From Candidatus Accumulibacter regalis (lineage in GTDB: Bacteria; Pseudomonadota; Gammaproteobacteria; Burkholderiales; Rhodocyclaceae), in contig JEMY01000020.1 of NCBI GenBank assembly GCA_000585075.1, positions 1 through 57,473 on the forward strand: a stretch of DNA of 57,473 nt, read 5' to 3'. The notes beneath the pieces are model-generated. The model was not told the DNA's origin and did not search any database. It saw nothing but the letters and a program-made list of their open reading frames with translations. A program made the translations under genes and the position numbers. Below, in pieces: positions 1-9,539 of this stretch. The first letter of the stretch is position 1; each line of letters opens with the position of its first letter.

Positions 1-268
1 CCGCCCGCTCGTCGGCGGCGGCCTGGGCGCGGCTGCTGGCGACACCGACGGCGGCGCGCTCGACGTCGCCGCGCAACAGGGCCAGGACCTGCCCCTGGCG
101 CACCCGGTCACCGCGTTCGACGCGAATCTCCTCGATCACGCCGATCACCGGCGAGCCGACCTCGGCCACCCGCTCGGGCTCGATCAGGCAACCCATGGGC
201 TGCGCGGCGGCCAGCGATCCGCTGACGCCGACCAGGAACAACATCCCCCAGTTGCGTGTTCTGCTCAT
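1..268 (-). CDS. Periplasmic adaptor (HlyD/RND membrane-fusion type), C-terminus outside window
   Basis: Only the first 89 codons are visible; the gene runs off the left edge. The protein starts with a signal-like segment (MSRTRNWGMLFLVG), followed by a biotinyl/lipoyl-like half-motif around residues 40-60 (RVERGDRVRQGQVLA) and the start of an Ala-rich helical hairpin. This is the usual opening of a membrane-fusion adaptor that links an inner-membrane pump to an outer-membrane channel. ATG at 268 is preceded by GGGAGAAGA. It lies 23 bp downstream of the secA-like gene and so is probably the last visible gene of the operon starting near 5.9 kb. The transported substrate cannot be read from this fragment. 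Confidence 0.75.
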   Translation of the reverse strand, partial: MSRTRNWGMLFLVGVSGSLAAAQPMGCLIEPERVAEVGSPVIGVIEEIRVERGDRVRQGQVLALLRGDVERAAVGVASSRAQAAADERA

Positions 269-291
269 GACTTCTTCTCCCTTGACGGATT

Positions 292-2277
292 TCATTCGAG
301 CGGGCCGCCGAACGACAGGCGGCGGTCCATGCTCTGGTCGTGTTGCAGCAGGCGCTTGCGTTCGAGCACGTGGCGACGCTCGATACGCCGCTGCACCAGC
401 GCGGCGAGCGCGTGCACCACCCGGCTTGGCAGCGCTGCGGCATGGGCGGCAAGCAGGCGACGCGTGCCGCCTCCCAGTGCGGTCACGAACAGCGACGCAT
501 CGGCCGTCAACCAGGTTTCGACACTTCCCGGATCGCCCTGGCGCGCGCAGCGCCCCGCCAGCTGGCGATCGATGCGCCGGGCGGCGTTGAACTGACAACA
601 GATGACGTGCAGGCCGCCGAGCTCGCTGACCCCTTTGCCGAGGGTGATATCGACCCCGCGACCGGCCATGTTGGTGGCCACGGTGATCGCTCCGCGCTCG
701 CCCGCGCGGGCGACGATTTTGGCTTCGGCGAGGTCGTTGCGCGCGTTGAGAAGGGCGTGTGCGACGCCGCGCTGCTCCAGCAGCTGCGACAGCGCCTCGG
801 AATCGGCGACCGAGTCGGTGCCGATCAACACCGGCCGGCCGCTGTGCTGGAACTCGACGACGCGGCAGGCAATGGCTTCCTGCAGCAGCTGGCGATTCGC
901 AAACAGCCGGCTGGGGAGAACCGTGCGCCGATTCGGGCGGCGCAAAGGCACGCACGACACCGCCAGGTCGTAGTGCGCGCGCAGTTCGCCGGCGGATTCG
1001 CTGAGCGTGCCGCTCAAGCCGGCAAGGCGCAGATAACGCGGGAAGAAGCGCTGATAGGTGATTTGCGCGGCGGTGACCTGAGCAGCGGTGGGCAGGCATT
1101 GTTCCTTGAGTTCGATCAGCTGATGCAAGCCGCGCGACCAGGCGCGGCCAGCCGCGACTCGCCCGGTGGTGTCGTCGATGATCAGCACCTTGCCGTCACG
1201 GACCAGGTAATGGCGGTCGCGACGGTAGATATGCAGCGCTGCCAGCGCGCTGCGAATGCTCTCTTCGCGATGCAGGCGGTTGCGCCAGACCGACGCCAGC
1301 GGCCGTACCAGCGCATCGACCCGCTCTTGCCCCGACAGCGTGAGCCGCGCAGTGCGCGCTGCCGGGTCCAGTCGGAAGTGCGGGCTGTCGACGGCGCTGC
1401 CGAGCTGGCGCGCGATCTCTAGCGACTGCTTGAGGTAGTCGGTCTCCTGTTCGTTGCCGACCGCTTGCGCGAGAATGAACGGCACCCGCGCCTCGTCGAT
1501 CAGGATGCTGTCGGCCTCATCGACGATGGCCATGCACAGGCCGCGCAGCAGCGGTGGCGAGCTTCCTTCGCCGCTCAGCTGGTCGACCCGCCGACGCAGC
1601 GGGTCGCGTGTCCGGCCAAGCCCGTCACGGAGGTAGTCGAATACGAGTTCCCGAGCCGTACAGCAGGTGATGTCGCAGGCGTAGGCCGCGCGGCGTTCGC
1701 CGGCCTGCTGTCCCTGGATCACCGCGCCGACCGCCAGACCGAGCGCGGCGTAGACCGGTCGCAGCAGGTCTGCGTCACGGGCGACCAGGTAATCATTGGC
1801 GGTGACCACGTGCACCGGAATGCCGGCCAGCGCGGCAGTGGCGGCCGCCAGTGCCACGGCATAGGTCTTGCCCTCGCCGGTGGCCATCTCGGCCAGGCGA
1901 TTACCGAGCACGATCCAGGCGGCGATGACCTGGGTGTCGAAAATTCGAATCTGGTGCTCGCGCTCGCAAGCGACACCGACCAGCGCAAAGGCGCTGGCGA
2001 GATGGGTATCGCGCATGCCGTCCGTCTGCAGCTGCAGCCGCAGCGTGCGTACGGCCTCCCTGAACTGCGCCGGGCCGAGTCGGCGGAACGCTTTGCGCTG
2101 GCCGGAAAATGCGCTCAGCAGGAGTGGGGGCGTGTTCGACAGCAGCCCCTGCGCGCGATCGCCAAGCACCTTCAGCGCAGCCGGGAAGCGGCGCGTCTGC
2201 GGTTCGGCGGCAGCAGGCTGGCGTTCCGGGTAGTCGCCCCAGAACAATCCGGGGATCGGCAGGTCGGCGCATCTCAT
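292..2277 (-). CDS. Short SecA-like preprotein translocase ATPase
   Basis: The 661-residue protein carries the SecA motor: Walker A MATGEGKT at 131-138, Walker B VDEADSILIDEAR from 252, LSGTLSES near 421, NMAGRGVDITLG at 536-547 and QLAGRCARQGDPGS near 572-585. These match SecA rather than a generic helicase. Housekeeping SecA is about 900 residues; here the C-terminal wing/scaffold is short and no zinc-binding Cys tail is present, so this is more like an accessory SecA. It is 25 bp downstream of an M50 protease/HlyD fusion and 23 bp upstream of an adaptor, pointing to a dedicated export role at the inner membrane (inference). No SecY or SecE lies nearby. Confidence 0.88.
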   Translation of the reverse strand: MRCADLPIPGLFWGDYPERQPAAAEPQTRRFPAALKVLGDRAQGLLSNTPPLLLSAFSGQRKAFRRLGPAQFREAVRTLRLQLQTDGMRDTHLASAFALVGVACEREHQIRIFDTQVIAAWIVLGNRLAEMATGEGKTYAVALAAATAALAGIPVHVVTANDYLVARDADLLRPVYAALGLAVGAVIQGQQAGERRAAYACDITCCTARELVFDYLRDGLGRTRDPLRRRVDQLSGEGSSPPLLRGLCMAIVDEADSILIDEARVPFILAQAVGNEQETDYLKQSLEIARQLGSAVDSPHFRLDPAARTARLTLSGQERVDALVRPLASVWRNRLHREESIRSALAALHIYRRDRHYLVRDGKVLIIDDTTGRVAAGRAWSRGLHQLIELKEQCLPTAAQVTAAQITYQRFFPRYLRLAGLSGTLSESAGELRAHYDLAVSCVPLRRPNRRTVLPSRLFANRQLLQEAIACRVVEFQHSGRPVLIGTDSVADSEALSQLLEQRGVAHALLNARNDLAEAKIVARAGERGAITVATNMAGRGVDITLGKGVSELGGLHVICCQFNAARRIDRQLAGRCARQGDPGSVETWLTADASLFVTALGGGTRRLLAAHAAALPSRVVHALAALVQRRIERRHVLERKRLLQHDQSMDRRLSFGGPLE

Positions 2278-2302
2278 GGCAGATAGTCAGGGAGCCGAGC
2301 GT

Positions 2303-4447
2303 TCATTCGCCGGGATCGAAATGTTTCAGGAAGAGTTGGCTCGCGCGCCGGAAGACTTGTCCGGCCAGGGGTTCGAAACCGTGATCGAAACGGACCCAGG
2401 CCCGGCCGCCGACACGCTCCAGCGGCGCGCCCTTGAGCGTCAGGTCGATCAGGAAAACCGGCGCGATGCTGCGCCGGCCGTCCGGGTCGCCCGGATCGGT
2501 CGCGTAGGGCCCGCCCGCACGCTCGCCAAGTGCCGGGCTGGGCAAGAGGTGCGAGGCGGCAGGCTCATCCTGGCCGAGACTCGCCGAGAGTGCCCTGCCC
2601 GGCGCCTCGGCGAGGCGCACTTCGGCGTGACGGGTACGATTGCGCACCAGATGCGCGTCCTCGTCGGCGAGCGCGGCGCGGACGCGCAACTCGCTCGCTT
2701 CAAGGACGTAACCGAGGATCGTTCCCTGGCGGCTGAAGGTTCCCGGCAGGTCGTCCTGGTGCGGCATGACCAGGGTGCCGGCAACCTTGGCGCGCACTTC
2801 GAGCTGGCCGATGCGCTGCTCGGCACGCGCGAGTTCGGCCTCGGTACGGGCGATCTGTTCGGCGAGGTTCTGCGCGCCGGTCGGGTCGCGCAGGAGAAGC
2901 TGGTACTGGTCGGCCTGCAGCCCGCCCAGACGACCGGTCAACTGCTCGCGGGCGGCCACGAGGTCGATATTCTCGAGGACCACGAGCAGGTCGCCAGGCT
3001 GTACCGACTGTCCGTCGCGAACCGGCAGCTGGCGGATGAAACCGTCGACCTCGGGGCGCACCTGCGCTTGCTCGGGCAACCACACGACCGCCGGGGCGAC
3101 GGTCGATAAGGGCAACGGCAAAACGAAAAGCAGGACACCCGGAATCGCCAGCAGCAGCGCAATGCCGGTACGCACACGGGTCAGTTCCGACCCTGGTGCG
3201 GCGGCGGCAAGCGCGTGTCTGACCCAGTTCCCGATCGGTCGCACAATCATCGAAGCCGTCAGATAGATCGCCGCGACGACGCCGAGCAGAAACCACTTGG
3301 CGCCGAACCAGAGGATGATCGCCACTGAAATCAGCAGCCGGTAGGCAAACGAGAGCGGCGCGTAGAGCAACAGCCACTTCAATTCACCGGCAACGAACTG
3401 CGGTGCCTCGCCCGGCGCCTGCAGCAGGTGGCGGCGCACCAGATAGCTCCACCAGGCGCTGCTGCGAGTCGCCAGATTGGGCAGGTCGAGCAGGTCGCAG
3501 AGGACATAGTAAGCATCGAAGCGGAGCAGCGGATTGCCGTTGAAGAGCAGCGTCGAGACGCCGCCGATGAACATCACCACCAGCGCGACGTCGCGCACCA
3601 GCCCCGGCTGAACGTTCAACCACAGCAGCAGAGCGAGCGCGGCAAGCGTCGTTTCGACCATGATTCCGGCCGCGGCGACGGCTGCCCGCTGGCTGCGCCG
3701 CGCGAAGCCGGAGGACGCCGATGCGTCGACGTACGGTGCCGGCACCAGCACCAGCAGGGCAACGCCGATCTCGTGCACTTCGCCTCCCCAGCGCCTGATC
3801 GCCAGAGCGTGTCCGAGCTCGTGCAGGGCCTTGACGAGCGGGAAAACGAGCCAGGCGAGCGCCAGATAAGTGGGCGTCAGCATCTGCGTTCGGACTTCGG
3901 CCTGCAGCTCGCTCCAGTTGGCCCCCGCCACCAGCAAGGCGACGGCGACGAGCGCCAGCCAAACCCACAACAGCGCCGGACGAAAGAGCAGCGAGGCCAG
4001 AGGATCGAAGCGCGGCAACCACGACGAAGGGTCGCCCAGGGGCAGGCGGAAGGCAAAGGGATTGACCATCGCCCGGCGCCTGCGGCGACGACGCTCGGTG
4101 CGCCTCTGGAAGAGAACGGCGGTATCCGGCGTGTGCTCGCACTGCAGCAGCTCGTGCTCGTTGAGCTGCGCCAGCAGCGCAATCACCTCGTCCTGGGTCG
4201 GCGCCGCATCGCCGAGCGTCGCCAGTACGCTGTCCCAGACCCCCTGCACGTCGTGGCGTCCATCGCAACGACCAATGAACTGGTAAGCCGGATCGTTGAT
4301 CAGGTGCTGGCGGCCGGTCGCCGTATCGGAAAGCAGGTACCAGGGCTGGCCGCGCCGGTTCTGGCGTTGCGTCCGTACCTGTGGGCGCAGGCGGGGATGA
4401 AGTTGAGCGACTCGATACCACTGCGTGCTGAACAGCGATTGCGTCAT
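2303..4447 (-). CDS. PqqD-like / M50 site-2 protease / HlyD-type fusion membrane protein
   Basis: A 714-residue polytopic protein in three parts. Residues 1-110 resemble a PqqD-like peptide-binding domain (WYLLSDTATGRQHL near 36-49). Residues about 150-440 form the membrane M50 domain with the zinc motif HELGH at 209-213 and the second ligand region NGNPLLRFDAYY at 303-314, so the metal ligands are intact. Residues about 460-600 carry a lipoyl-like half-motif (RPEVDGFIRQLPVRDGQSV) and a coiled hairpin as in HlyD adaptors. Proteins of this build are often named putative peptide zinc metalloproteases. It starts 1 bp after the preceding adaptor gene. A role in processing and handing on a peptide or protein substrate is inferred. 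Confidence 0.87.
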   Translation of the reverse strand: MTQSLFSTQWYRVAQLHPRLRPQVRTQRQNRRGQPWYLLSDTATGRQHLINDPAYQFIGRCDGRHDVQGVWDSVLATLGDAAPTQDEVIALLAQLNEHELLQCEHTPDTAVLFQRRTERRRRRRRAMVNPFAFRLPLGDPSSWLPRFDPLASLLFRPALLWVWLALVAVALLVAGANWSELQAEVRTQMLTPTYLALAWLVFPLVKALHELGHALAIRRWGGEVHEIGVALLVLVPAPYVDASASSGFARRSQRAAVAAAGIMVETTLAALALLLWLNVQPGLVRDVALVVMFIGGVSTLLFNGNPLLRFDAYYVLCDLLDLPNLATRSSAWWSYLVRRHLLQAPGEAPQFVAGELKWLLLYAPLSFAYRLLISVAIILWFGAKWFLLGVVAAIYLTASMIVRPIGNWVRHALAAAAPGSELTRVRTGIALLLAIPGVLLFVLPLPLSTVAPAVVWLPEQAQVRPEVDGFIRQLPVRDGQSVQPGDLLVVLENIDLVAAREQLTGRLGGLQADQYQLLLRDPTGAQNLAEQIARTEAELARAEQRIGQLEVRAKVAGTLVMPHQDDLPGTFSRQGTILGYVLEASELRVRAALADEDAHLVRNRTRHAEVRLAEAPGRALSASLGQDEPAASHLLPSPALGERAGGPYATDPGDPDGRRSIAPVFLIDLTLKGAPLERVGGRAWVRFDHGFEPLAGQVFRRASQLFLKHFDPGE

Positions 4448-4448
4448 T

Positions 4449-5822
4449 TCAAAGCCCCCATGTCCAGGTCGCCATGCGCAGCCAGTCGCCGATGCGATGC
4501 GTCGCCACCCAAGCCAGCGATCGGGTCCCGGCGTCGATCTTGGCGACGCCTCTCAGCCCTGGGCGCAACCCGGCGGGCGGCTGCCCGAAAGCAGCCTCGA
4601 TTTCGAAGGCATTGCGCCCCTCCAGGGTGAGTGCCATCGGGCTGATACGGGTCACCGCGAAGTCGAGCCGCTCACCGGGCAGAGCCGACAGCGCCAACTG
4701 GCCGCGCTGACCGAGAACGACGCCGCCGATGCTGCGCTCGTCGACTTCGATGATCAGCCGGAAAGCGTCTCGCGGGGCGAGAGTGAGCAAGACGTCGCCG
4801 CGCTGTACCGGCGCGCCAAGCGCTTGCGACAGGTCGCCCTGGATGACCAGGCCGTCGATCGGGGCGGTGACCTGGCTGCGCACCAGTTGCGCTTGCGCCA
4901 GCTCGAGTTGCGCACCGGCCTCGGCAGCTCGCGCCTGGGCGATGGCGTACTGGCTGCGGTCGGCGCGCGCCAGGGCCGCTGCAGCGCTGTTCTGGTGCTG
5001 CGTGAGTTCGGCTTCCCATTTGCGGTTCTGCAGCAGCAGGTCCTGCTGCGCGAGTTCGACCAGCACCTGCCCGACCGCGACGACGTCGCCCGGGCGCACG
5101 TGCGCGGCGCGCAAATAGCCATCGCTGGGGGCTGCCAGCACGCGCTGGGTTGCGCCTTCGAGCCGCGCCGGTGCACCGATGCGGTGGCTGACCGGGAACA
5201 TGGCCAAAGCAACGATCGCCACCAGCCCACCTAGCCAGGCCAGCCGTCGCGTGCGCCGCCCGGATCCGCCCCAGTAGCCGCGCAGCGCTTCACTGGCGCG
5301 CGCCGACCAGCCCAGTTCAGCCCGCTGTTTGAGTGCCAGCAACGGCGTAAGCATGCAGACGAGAGGCTCGATAACGCGCAACTCGTCGGCGGTGACGGCA
5401 CGCTGACGCTCGAAGCACAGGCAGCCGATCGTTTGACCGGCGCCGATCAACGGGACGCTGAGCAGCGTGCCCGAACCCTGCGCGGCCAGTCGGGCGTGTG
5501 CCTGGACAACGCGCGGTGCTGCCTCGGAAGGCAGCGGATAGACAATCGAGGCATTCTGGTCGATGGCTTCCTGCATGGCCAGGGTCAGCGCCTGCGAGCG
5601 TTCCTCGCCGTCACCGGACCCGGCGGTAGGCGACGCGGCAACGAGCGTCAAGCCCGCACGCGTAGAGAGCCCGACGCTGACGCGATCGAAAGCGAGAGTG
5701 CAGGCCAGTTCGCTGCACAGCGTGCTGGCAGCCTGCTCGAGCGGTTGCGGCGCAAGGAGTGGCGTCTACAGTTGCAGCAGCCGGCGCTGCGCCGCGTCGG
5801 ATGGCCTTGCGAATTCGCTCAT
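4449..5822 (-). pseudogene. GAF-HlyD membrane-fusion protein interrupted by an in-frame amber codon
   Basis: From ATG 5822 (RBS GGAAGGAAGA) the frame reads 18 codons, then TAG at 5766-5768, then continues open in the same frame to 4449. The open part after the stop encodes the rest of a GAF-like domain, a transmembrane segment (LGGLVAIVALAMF), a lipoyl-like half-motif, a coiled hairpin and a beta-barrel region typical of HlyD. A TTG at 5651 could restart translation but would cut into the GAF fold, whose homologous-looking sequence begins upstream of it. Either the gene is broken, or the stop is an assembly error, or it is read through. CAG to TAG is the simplest single change. The downstream genes look intact. 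Confidence 0.72.
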
Positions 5823-6308: not shown

Positions 6309-7751
6309 TCACGGCACAAAGCGATCGACGTAATCGTTCACCGCCAGCGTCCCCAGGCCACGTACGTCGAGCGACGACTTGAGGATGACGGCCTGCTGCG
6401 CGGAGTTGAATTGCCGGGCCAGGTGTTTCCTGAACTTCTCGAGCAGAACCGGGATCCCTTCCGCGCGTCGGCGACTGTGGCCAAGCGGGTATTCGCAGAT
6501 CAACTCGTCTGTCGCACTGCCGTCGGTGAAGAAGACCTGTAGCGCGTTGGCGATCGAACGCTTCTCGGGATTCAGGTAGTCCGCCGAGAAACGTGCTTCC
6601 TCGACCACTTCGATTTTCGCGCGCAAGGCGTCGATGCGCGGATCCGCCGCTGCTTCGTCCTCGTAGGCGTCAGCGCTGAGGGCGCCGTTGATGAGGGCAA
6701 AAGCAACCATGTACTGCAGGCAATGATCGCGATCCGCGGGATTGTGCAGCGGCCCTCGCTTGTCGATGATACGCAGCGCGGATTCGTGCGTACGGATGAC
6801 GACTCTTTCGATGCTCGCCAACCGCTGCCACACCTGCGAATGCAGTTCAACGGCCGACTCGACCGCCGTCTGGGCGTGAAACTCGGCCGGAAAACTGATC
6901 TTGAAGAGGATGTTCTCGATCACGTAGCTGCCGAACGGGCGGGCAACGCGCAAGGCCTGCCCCCTGAACAGCGCGTCCTGGAAGCCCCAGGTGCGGGCAG
7001 TCAGCGCGCTTGGATAACCCATCTCGCCCCTGAGCGAAAACAGGGCCAGCATGACCCCGCGCGCGGTCGCATCGCCGGCGGCCCAGGACTTGCGCGAACC
7101 GGTGTTCGGCGCGTGCCGATAGGTGCGCAGCGGAGTGCCATCGACGAAAGCCTGTGAAACGGCGTTGATGACCTGCTCGCGCTGGCCACCCATCAGCCAG
7201 GTGCACACCGCCGCCGTCGCCACCTTGACCAGCAGGACGTGATCCAGGCCGACGCGATTGAAGCTGTTCTCCAGCGCCAGAACGCCCTGTATCTCGTAGG
7301 CCTTGATCATCGCTTCAAGAACCTGGCGCATCTGCAGCGGCGCCTGGCCACTGGCGACGCGGGTCCGCGACAGCCAGTCGGCGGTGGCCAGAATGCCGCC
7401 CAGGTTGTCCGAGGGGTGACCCCATTCAGCCGCCAACCAGGTGTCGTTGAAGTCCAGCCAGCGGATCAGGGTGCCGATGTTGAAGGCCGCCTGAATCGGG
7501 TCCAGCTGAAAGCGGGTACCGGGAACGCGCGCGCCGTGGGGCACCACGGTACCCGGAACGACCGGCCCGAGCAGCTTGGTACATGCCGGGTAGGCGAGCG
7601 CTTCGAGGCCACAACCGAGGGCGTCGATCAGGCAATAGCGTGCGGTATTGAAGGCCGCACTCGACTCGACCTTGAAATCGAGAACGTAACTGGCGATATC
7701 GACCAGCAACCGATCGGGTTCGGGGCGAGACTTGGCAATTCGCGATGACAT
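6309..7751 (-). CDS. prpD: MmgE/PrpD family 2-methylcitrate dehydratase
   Basis: This 480-residue protein matches PrpD in length and character: HHPADRD-like segments near the C-terminus ([18 protein letters not shown]), [20 protein letters not shown] in the N-terminal half and [12 protein letters not shown] in the middle. PrpD dehydrates 2-methylcitrate to 2-methyl-cis-aconitate in cytoplasmic propionate oxidation. ATG 7751 is preceded by CAGGAGT; the open frame extends upstream to 7964 but that part has no family character. prpC lies 480 bp upstream on the same strand. prpB and acnD/acnB are not in the window. Confidence 0.9.
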
Positions 7752-7990
7752 GGTGTTACTCCTGCTGCCCTGCCGGGCCGCCCGGCGATGGCCAGGCAGC
7801 GACTTGCGCTGCGCTGGCCAGTCCGGAAAATCGGCACGAGACGCAATTCTAGTGTACTGCTGCGTTCTTGATGAGGCTTTCAGCGACCCTGGCAGCAGCG
7901 TGAAAGCGTAGGGTGGATGGGTGGATCGAGTTCGCCCGGCCCATACCGCTGCCCGCGGCGCCAAATCCGGGCAACCATTCCCGGTCCACC

Positions 7991-8230: not shown

Positions 8231-9406
8231 CTAGCTTCGTGCGTTCAGCGCGACGAATTCCTGCACCTCCGGCCCGACGTAGTTGGCCGACGGGCGAATC
8301 AGCTTGCCGTCGATGCGTTGCTCGATGATGTGTGCGGCCCAGCCGCTGGTGCGGGCGATCACGAACAGCGGCGTGAACATCGGCGTCGGCACGGCCAGCA
8401 TGTGATAGGCAACGCCCGAGAACCAGTCGACATTGGGGAACATGCGCTTCTGCTCCCACATCACCTGCTCGATTCGACTGGCAATGTCGAACAGCGCCTG
8501 ATTGTCGCCATCGCTGCATAACTGCTGTGCGACGGCGCGGATCACCTTGTTGCGCGGATCGGCGATGGTGTACAAGGGGTGACCGAAACCGATGATGATT
8601 TCCCGCCTGGCCAGGCGATTGCAGATGTCGCTCTCGGCGTGCTGCGCATCGTTGTAGCGGCTCTGGATCTCGAACGCCGCTTCGTTGGCGCCGCCGTGTC
8701 GGGGACCGCTGAGCGCGCCAATGGCGCCGCTGACCGCGGCGTACAGGTCGGCACCGGTTCCGGCGATGGTTCGCGCCGTAAAGGTCGAGGCGTTGAACTC
8801 GTGCTCGGCGTAGAGCACCAGCGATTTGTCCAGGCTGCTGGCGTGCAGCGCCGACGGTGCCTTGCCGCAGAGCAGGTGCAGAAAGTGCGCGGCGATCGAA
8901 TCGTCGTCGGTCTCCGTTTCGATGCGCCGACCATTGTGCGACCAGTGATACCAGTAGAGCAGCATCGACCCGAAACTGGCAATCAGCCGGTCGGCAATCT
9001 CGCGCGCGCCACCGGGGTTGTGATCCTGCGCCTCCGGCAGGATGGTTCCCAGCGCCGAGCAGCCGCTGCGCAGCACATCGGTCGGGTGCGCCGACGCCGG
9101 CAGGTTTTCGAGGACCGGCCGCAGACGCACCGGCAGGCCGCGCAGCGTCTTCAGCTTCTTGCGGTACTGGTTGAGCTGGTTCACGCTCGGCAAGCGCCCA
9201 TAGAGGAGCAAATACGCCACTTCTTCGTAAGTGGCGTGCTCGGCGAGGGCGATGACGTCGTAGCCGCGGTAGTGGAGGTCATTGCCGTTGCGGCCGACCG
9301 CGCAGATGGCCGTGTCGCCGGCCACGACGCCGGAGAGCGCAACCGACTTCTTGCCTTTTGGCGCCTCGCTCGTCGCCACTTCGTTGCCGAGCACCTCGTC
9401 CATCAT
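8231..9406 (-). CDS. prpC: 2-methylcitrate synthase (citrate synthase family)
   Basis: A 391-residue citrate-synthase-fold enzyme condensing propionyl-CoA with oxaloacetate. Diagnostic features are [20 protein letters not shown] near the N-terminus, [14 protein letters not shown] (catalytic His region), [14 protein letters not shown] and the C-terminal [10 protein letters not shown]. This short-form architecture fits PrpC better than housekeeping GltA. Two ATGs at 9406 and 9403 follow AGGGGAGG; the frame is open further upstream to 9472 without family character. It pairs with prpD downstream. A citrate synthase side activity is possible in this family. Confidence 0.88.
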
Positions 9407-9539
9407 CCCTCCCCTGGCCACCAGGCCTGCACGCTGTGGATGAGTATTCCCGAGCTTGCCTAGCGCGGTCAACCGTGGCGGCGTTCAAGCAGCGCAGCGC
9501 CTGCTCGGCAAGCGGCAGCCGCTCGCCACCCCTGCGTCC

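Follow-up and report, generated by a model that had tools for sequence, protein, structure and literature searches.

Several described systems share parts with the locus analysed here. In type I secretion, an ATP-binding cassette (ABC) transporter, an HlyD adaptor and TolC work together, and giant RTX adhesins are among the proteins associated with this route. In SecA, contacts with SecY and the substrate are made by the parts beyond the motor, namely the remaining scaffold, the wing, the two-helix finger and the C-tail. Among leader peptidases, MpaP is described in one report as an intramembrane peptidase that depends on an RRE domain and removes the daptide leader (PMC10036551). The present analysis concerns a four-gene operon in a stretch of 57,473 bases from Candidatus Accumulibacter regalis, hereafter the window, which is the entire contig C20 of the 4.6-Mb genome G000, with nothing to the left of base 1. 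Along the minus strand, the operon encodes a GAF-HlyD protein, a PqqD-M50-HlyD protein, a SecA-like protein and an HlyD protein, with gaps of 1, 25 and 23 base pairs (bp) between them; the sequence and Pfam confirm this arrangement, which had been given in a preliminary description of the window. On comparative sequence evidence, the products of the operon quite probably form the cell-envelope part of a system dedicated to the export of giant surface proteins that carry an N-terminal LEPR tag.

Conservation of the operon was assessed in two samples with few genomes in common. In the order sample (200 genomes; SecA-like at E<=1e-100, GAF-HlyD at E<=1e-20, M50 at E<=1e-40 and close M50 at E<1e-80), a SecA-like gene was found in 24 genomes, GAF-HlyD in 25, M50 in 36 and close M50 in 25. 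All 24 SecA-like genomes also contained GAF-HlyD and close M50 (Fisher 4e-30; related genomes occur within both samples, so that this and the later Fisher values overstate independence), and the recurrence of the set beyond the window, on which the preliminary description had staked its proposal, is thereby upheld. An M50 gene lies within 1 kb of the SecA-like gene at 30 of 33 places, and the other three places start 7, 365 and 600 bases from the first base of their contig. Conversely, 30 of 38 close M50 places have a SecA-like gene within 1 kb, and in four of those without one (G137 C141, G140 C2, G100 C43 and G153 C509) the contig breaks off on the very side where the SecA-like gene would be expected. 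In the phylum sample (299 genomes; SecA-like at E<=1e-92, M50 at E<=1e-25, LEPR at E<=0.01), 34 genomes contain a SecA-like gene after six of 40 were removed as full-length SecA (frames of 821-915 amino acids (aa), with the match ending near query residue 550-571), and M50 is present in all 34. The operon is not a chance arrangement, since its gene order is repeated in 24 of the 200 order genomes and the SecA-like gene occurs with M50 in 34 of the 299 phylum genomes. Furthermore, a contig scan found all four genes in ten records, assigned to Burkholderiaceae, Zoogloea, a gammaproteobacterium, a deltaproteobacterium, Rhodoferax, Rubrivivax, Roseomonas, Ramlibacter, Azonexus and Phycisphaerae (Planctomycetota). 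In an Opitutaceae genome (Verrucomicrobiota), a weakly TolC-like gene, HlyD, GAF-HlyD, M50 and the SecA-like gene stand in a row.

The substrates are likely to be giant adhesin-like surface proteins with a common N-terminal tag, not small peptides. Twenty order loci were picked as the longer contigs from the 38 M50 places at E<1e-80; in 16 of them, often adjoining the operon, a gene 1,000 aa or longer has the look of a repeat-rich giant, and in a 17th (L057) a 4,601-aa frame ends within the stretch. Three order giants scanned with Pfam contain cadherin or cadherin-like domains and DUF4347, with immunoglobulin (Ig)-like, laminin-G-like or RTX repeats in some. A further 20 stretches were chosen, some out of the phylum sample and some out of LEPR genomes that lack M50. 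Long genes, judged by length only, are also present in eight of the ten SecA-containing phylum loci where the gene caller recovered the operon; at L219 it recovered no operon gene, though searches place M50 and the SecA-like gene there. The largest LEPR frames among those listed reach 19,427 aa (G259:C115), 15,434 aa (G213:C1) and 15,251 aa (G205:C1), and the tagged giant frames of G205 and G213 begin next to the SecA-like gene. The preliminary description had proposed a dedicated exporter with peptide handling: the exporter stands as the best reading, with putative substrates beside the operon in relatives, whereas these are giants in place of small peptides, and both export and the protease step are put forward here conditionally.

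The tag consists approximately of a basic stretch followed by Phi-E-x-L-E-P-R-Phi-L-x-S-A-D. When the N-termini of four giants were compared with the LEPR-XLL model NF012209 (cut-off 17 bits), three scored above the cut-off (19.7, 29.0 and 22.5 bits) and one just below it (16.7 bits). The tagged N-termini have no strong hydrophobic core: their best 15-residue window has a median of 0.97, compared with 1.78 for the N-termini of the fourth gene product, in a list of 33 rows for SecA-containing loci that also includes at least two chance pattern matches (the second rows of L053 and L089), L045 and LEPR loci away from the operon. In the order sample, LEPR-XLL was found in 20 of 200 genomes at E<=1e-4, and all 20 contain a SecA-like gene (Fisher 7e-24). 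At weaker cut-offs, the SecA-like gene accompanies LEPR in 21 of 23 (E<=1e-3), 21 of 27 (0.01) and 22 of 45 genomes (0.1); the two exceptions at E<=1e-3 are G093, which has a SecA-less M50, and G094, where the match is a 23-aa frame. As a control, the model was run on 14 well-known genomes, and matched one at E<=0.1 and none at 0.01. In the phylum sample, M50 is present in 84 genomes, LEPR in 50 and both in 48 (45 of 47 after 20 same-order genomes were dropped). A SecA-like gene occurs in 31 of the 50 LEPR genomes, and LEPR in 31 of the 34 SecA-like genomes. The M50 protein is therefore the constant partner of LEPR, more so than the SecA-like protein, which marks one large branch.

In addition, the end of the tag differs between two types of operon. 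In SecA-containing loci, the tag has an S/A-A/G-D ending or one close to it (SAE, SSM) in 16 of 16 matched cases and in none is it of the FD type, whereas next to SecA-less sister operons the ending is FDGA or FDAA in eight of eight (Fisher 1.4e-6). The 16 do not include L048, a SecA-containing locus that failed to match the tag pattern and whose tag, LAPRILFSAD, is not of the FD type. Two SecA-less loci with close-type operons (L045 and L223), both with S-A tags, were set aside from the count. At L178, the gene caller showed the giant only, the M50 place being known from the M50 search. Genome G000 itself contains a SecA-less sister operon on contig C44 (L185 11379 to L022 10245), which comprises a giant cadherin/Ig protein, an outer-membrane efflux protein, HlyD, a relative of GAF-HlyD and an M50-HlyD protein, and which is a putative second exporter type in this genome. 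The giant, about 4,150 aa by coordinates, precedes the operon and carries the tag LEPRHLFDGA. Two other giants of G000, with the tag LEPRLMLSAD on C14 and the in-between tag LEARVLLDGD on C12, are not beside an operon, and the C12 giant is not in the flavour count. Through the SecA-less flavour, the proposal of a dedicated exporter already makes room for the weaker link between SecA and LEPR in the phylum sample.

The SecA-like protein is a shortened motor, as the preliminary description had stated. It matches the Pfam families SecA_DEAD (2.4e-78), P-loop_SecA (7.5e-43) and SecA_PP_bind (6.5e-23), and across all 19 aligned rows the motor residues examined do not vary, except for one GAGKT and one M-to-I change. 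Alignment to solved Bacillus subtilis SecA chains extends only to about residue 603, short of the wing, two-helix finger and C-tail, and the protein ends within the first long scaffold helix; the AlphaFold2 model (mean predicted local distance difference test score, pLDDT, 84.8) ends in one long helix. Among the 50 Foldseek matches listed, the highest TMq (0.79) belongs to 6itc_A, SecA in a substrate-engaged SecY complex. In a tree of 34 short SecA-like proteins and 64 full-length SecA proteins, the two groups are separated by one split with a support of 100 in the approximate likelihood ratio test SH-aLRT; the search was quick, with some long branches and uneven composition, and the root and the position of L115 are unsure. 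The full-length SecA of G000 falls on the full-length side and is encoded separately on contig C24, in a 954-aa frame with the gene called as 904 aa, so that the SecA-like gene lies outside housekeeping SecA and is not the only SecA of the genome, which was the other point on which the preliminary description could have failed. Scores are below every SecA and SecA2 cut-off among the NCBIfam models matched, namely 489.1 bits against 800 for housekeeping SecA (TIGR00963) and 418 against 1085, 389.4 against 725, 354.3 against 930 and 311.4 against 1100 for SecA2. Identity as a housekeeping or accessory SecA was considered and rejected on the tree, the length of 661 aa and these cut-offs.

The M50 protein matches Peptidase_M50 (2.2e-6; 27.6 bits, cut-off 27.2) and HlyD_D23 (1.8e-8) in Pfam. 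Both HExxH and NxxPxxxxD are conserved, with H209, E210, H213, N303, P306 and D311 invariant in 22 of 22 aligned rows; with HExxH and the aspartate of the second motif in place, the protein belongs to the site-2-type M50 proteases, and the intact zinc protease of the preliminary description is borne out. The PqqD-like domain claimed there scores above the Pfam cut-off of 23.4 in a second copy of the operon on contig C56 (28.3 bits), whereas the copy in the window scores below it (0.0014, 19.3 bits). The best NCBIfam match is NF041824, the daptide intramembrane metalloprotease, over residues 18-402 (1.9e-46), at 158.9 bits and thus below the cut-off of 300. The AlphaFold2 model has a mean pLDDT of 85.8, and its Foldseek matches include MexA/AcrA-type adaptors. 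Because the related MpaP removes the daptide leader, recognition and cutting of a leader would be a natural role for the M50 protein by analogy.

The features of the window copy are collected in the table below. The preliminary description had taken positions 4449-5822 as the first gene; its GAF-HlyD part is open, but the whole is not one open frame and the N-terminus is missing. The open part (4449-5762 in the Pfam scan) matches GAF (3e-8) and HlyD_3 (3.6e-16). It lacks an N-terminal stretch that is present in the copies on C41 and C56: the GAF-HlyD protein on C41 is 590-596 aa long, and its DNA match to the window (73%) begins about 150 codons into the C41 copy. The first gene would thus be either broken at the stop codon or initiated downstream of it, from a poor start codon within the GAF domain, and the window copy of the operon may be decaying or may have a first gene that starts at such a codon. 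If the gene is broken, the window copy may for that reason not be fully working. The fourth gene, for its part, matches Biotin_lipoyl_2 (1.4e-6; 28.4 bits, below the cut-off of 29.8), and over 216 bases its fragment is 86% identical in DNA to a longer HlyD gene that lies on C41. Since the contig stops at the fourth gene, the idea of a neighbouring giant or outer-membrane gene on that side was dropped. Upstream of the operon, PrpD-like and citrate or methylcitrate synthase-like genes were noted by eye at 6309-7964 and 8231-9472.

Coordinates of the operon and its features in the window
Feature	Position	Strand	Description
Fourth gene, HlyD/RND-type adaptor	2..268	-	Signal-like N-terminal stretch; first 89 residues only, gene cut by contig end
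Shortened SecA-like motor, 661 aa	292..2277	-	DEAD motor domains and preprotein cross-linking domain; frame open
PqqD-M50-HlyD, 714 aa	2303..4447	-	PqqD-like (RRE) domain, M50 zinc protease with several predicted membrane helices, HlyD-type domain; frame open
HELGH zinc site of M50 protein, residues 209-213	3809..3823	-	H209, E210, H213
GAF-HlyD, remaining open frame	4449..5765	-	GAF domain, one likely membrane helix, HlyD domain
In-frame TAG in first gene	5766..5768	-	18 codons past ATG at 5822 (sequence and translation)

Genome G000 contains further copies. The second operon, on C56, has the same gene order, with all four genes present and open; its SecA-like protein is 671 aa long, and its M50 protein is 43% identical to that of the window. 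On C41 (L008 10037-12881), GAF-HlyD is accompanied by an HlyD gene with a C-terminal end that is divergent by eye, and a tblastn search of C41 for M50 or SecA-like pieces found none; this pair is either a remnant of the operon or a deletion form.

The neighbourhoods of the operon were compared across 24 loci by BLAST clustering, with a match over half of the longer protein as the criterion, and by a Pfam scan that covered part of the neighbours. No gene family beyond the four operon genes occurs in more than five of these loci, and no ABC exporter family is recurrent among them. One gene cluster is found near the operon in five of the 24 (L008, L038, L050, L053 and L054); the L008 member is a GGDEF-EAL regulator, which makes a link to cyclic di-GMP possible, as is chance. 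A small DUF3467-like gene is present in 10 of 41 SecA-containing loci and in none of 20 others, often just upstream of GAF-HlyD (for instance, L044 12939-13265 and L097 1492-1872, with eight further loci), and is a possible fifth component. Maturation of small ribosomally synthesised and post-translationally modified peptides (RiPPs) was considered as a role and set aside: no small gene of at least 60 aa occurs in more than three of the 24 loci, where shorter genes were not called and small precursors are possible.

A sequence of steps can be proposed for the complete system. The giant would be made with its basic stretch and LEPR tag, and the PqqD domain of the M50 protein would recognise the tag in the cytosol. 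The SecA-like ATPase would bind the unfolded chain and pump it, while the M50 protein and GAF-HlyD would form or gate the passage through the inner membrane. The three HlyD-type parts, in line with the HlyD-type domains present in three of the operon genes, would then lead the giant out together with a TolC-type outer-membrane channel, sometimes encoded in the locus and otherwise supplied from elsewhere. The M50 site would cut the leader of the giant, as the related MpaP does for daptides. What the sequences themselves show is the gene order, its conservation, the co-occurrence of the genes, the missing SecA parts, the tag and its two flavours; export and its direction, tag recognition, cleavage and any part played by SecYEG are inferred from these. 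In its full form, this proposal describes a new type of secretion system for Gram-negative cells and states that a SecA-derived motor without the SecY finger drives tagged giants through an M50/HlyD assembly and a TolC-type channel, bypassing both SecYEG and an ABC transporter, that the leader peptidase is built in, and that two flavours of the system exist, one with the motor and one lacking it, each marked by a tag of its own. It is offered tentatively, at somewhat short of an even chance, and passage without SecYEG is its boldest part.

The route across the inner membrane is where the rival explanations diverge. An accessory SecA could feed SecYEG, so that the giants cross by the ordinary channel and the HlyD/TolC parts and M50 act only afterwards. 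Such a role would be compatible with a SecA homologue whose motor motifs are intact and whose predicted shape resembles SecY-bound, substrate-engaged SecA, and SecY was found in all 12 SecA-like genomes examined. It is single in ten of them, G338 and G353 each having another match of lower score, and a dedicated SecY2 is not the rule among them. The explanation is nevertheless considered unlikely, as the protein ends before the wing, finger and C-tail, remains below every SecA and SecA2 cut-off matched, and is linked to tagged N-termini without a strong hydrophobic core. It is more improbable still that the operon is a maturation or retention machine, in which the giants leave by another route, M50 and GAF-HlyD sense or trim their N-termini and the SecA-like protein works as a chaperone or unfoldase. 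Ligand sensing is common for GAF domains, MpaP as the nearest named relative of the protease takes off a leader, and many LEPR genomes with M50 have no SecA-like gene, all of which would suit such a machine; the three HlyD-type domains per operon, the TolC-like genes inside some loci (L041, L052, L055 and L111; weakly L140) and the lack of a recurrent ABC exporter family in the 24 clustered loci argue for export instead. Finally, the giants and the operon could have been inherited together in large-genome, surface-rich bacteria without functional coupling. Genomes with the system are often 4-7 Mb in size, some being near 2 Mb, and the samples are phylogenetically related, yet the direct adjacency of giant and operon in many loci, the agreement between tag flavour and operon type, and the link of LEPR to M50 outside the order make this explanation very improbable.

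Besides the relatedness of the sampled genomes, several observations weigh against a dedicated exporter of LEPR-tagged giants with a SecA-like motor. At the close M50 place on C2 of G016, the SecA-like gene was not found in the 20 kb read, and G379 has a close-type operon and a tagged giant (tag FSAT) with no SecA-like gene found. The short planctomycete SecA of L115 has no recognised partner in the 12 kb beginning 329 bases before the gene, no giant adjoins the C56 operon within the 20 kb read, and a TolC-like gene was recognised in only three of the 24 loci that were clustered. Of the 50 LEPR genomes in the phylum sample, 19 lack a SecA-like match at E<=1e-92, and 17 of these 19 have M50; strong cases of LEPR with M50 and no such match are G209 (LEPR 1.9e-7), G235, G250, G262, G267, G285 and G369. 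Either the system can sometimes do without the motor, or these genomes have copies too divergent to be matched. Conversely, LEPR is not found in the SecA-like genomes G052, G114 and G181 (order sample, E<=1e-3) and G232, G279 and G359 (phylum sample, E<=0.01), while G402 and G464 have LEPR and no M50, the LEPR match in G464 being a 64-aa frame. Two LEPR-FDA giants, in G032 (L210) and G058 (L211), with tags LEPRIMFDAA or LEPRMMFDAS, have no recognised operon gene in the stretches read, and the FD tag may serve further exporters. If the proposal of a motor-driven exporter is true, a SecA-type motor coupled to an HlyD/TolC conduit would join two export principles that are usually separate, and the tag would be predictive of the secretion of giant proteins. 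Export is open to direct testing through the SecA-less sister operon, which has a tag of its own.

Altogether, the operon can be set against the described systems with which it shares parts. Searches of open-licence PubMed Central, with most subscription papers and preprints outside their scope, found no description of a set of SecA-like, HlyD and M50 proteins, which agrees with the preliminary description, where no such system was known. In the open-licence text available, LEPR-XLL is mentioned in passing and its exporter is not named, the passages found on LEPR giants give no account of how such proteins leave the cell, and those on DUF4347 do not name export of such giants. The family LEPR-XLL is a sequence model, and the giants carry this N-terminal domain. 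Type I secretion resembles the operon in its HlyD adaptors, in a TolC-type gene in some loci and in giant neighbours bearing cadherin, Ig or RTX domains; it differs in that no ABC exporter family recurs in the clustered loci, that the SecA-like and M50 proteins recur instead, and that the common tag is at the N-terminus. SecA and SecA2 are homologous to the operon motor, which shares their DEAD, preprotein-binding and P-loop domains, but the latter ends before the wing, finger and C-tail, forms a separate clade, is linked to HlyD and M50, and has no second SecY in 10 of 12 genomes. The operon M50 protein is similar to MpaP (NF041824) in having a PqqD-like domain followed by an intramembrane HExxH protease, and differs from it in its score below the model cut-off, its HlyD fusion and its giant-protein neighbours. 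The NHLM-type peptide exporters (TIGR03794) are weakly similar in the HlyD parts, far below the cut-off, and no peptidase-ABC gene recurs in the loci. Each part of the operon belongs to a known family, while on the comparisons made none of type I secretion, accessory Sec and RiPP export matches the combination, the absent SecY finger and the association with LEPR giants, and the operon is accordingly regarded, as far as sequence comparison can indicate, as a candidate new system.

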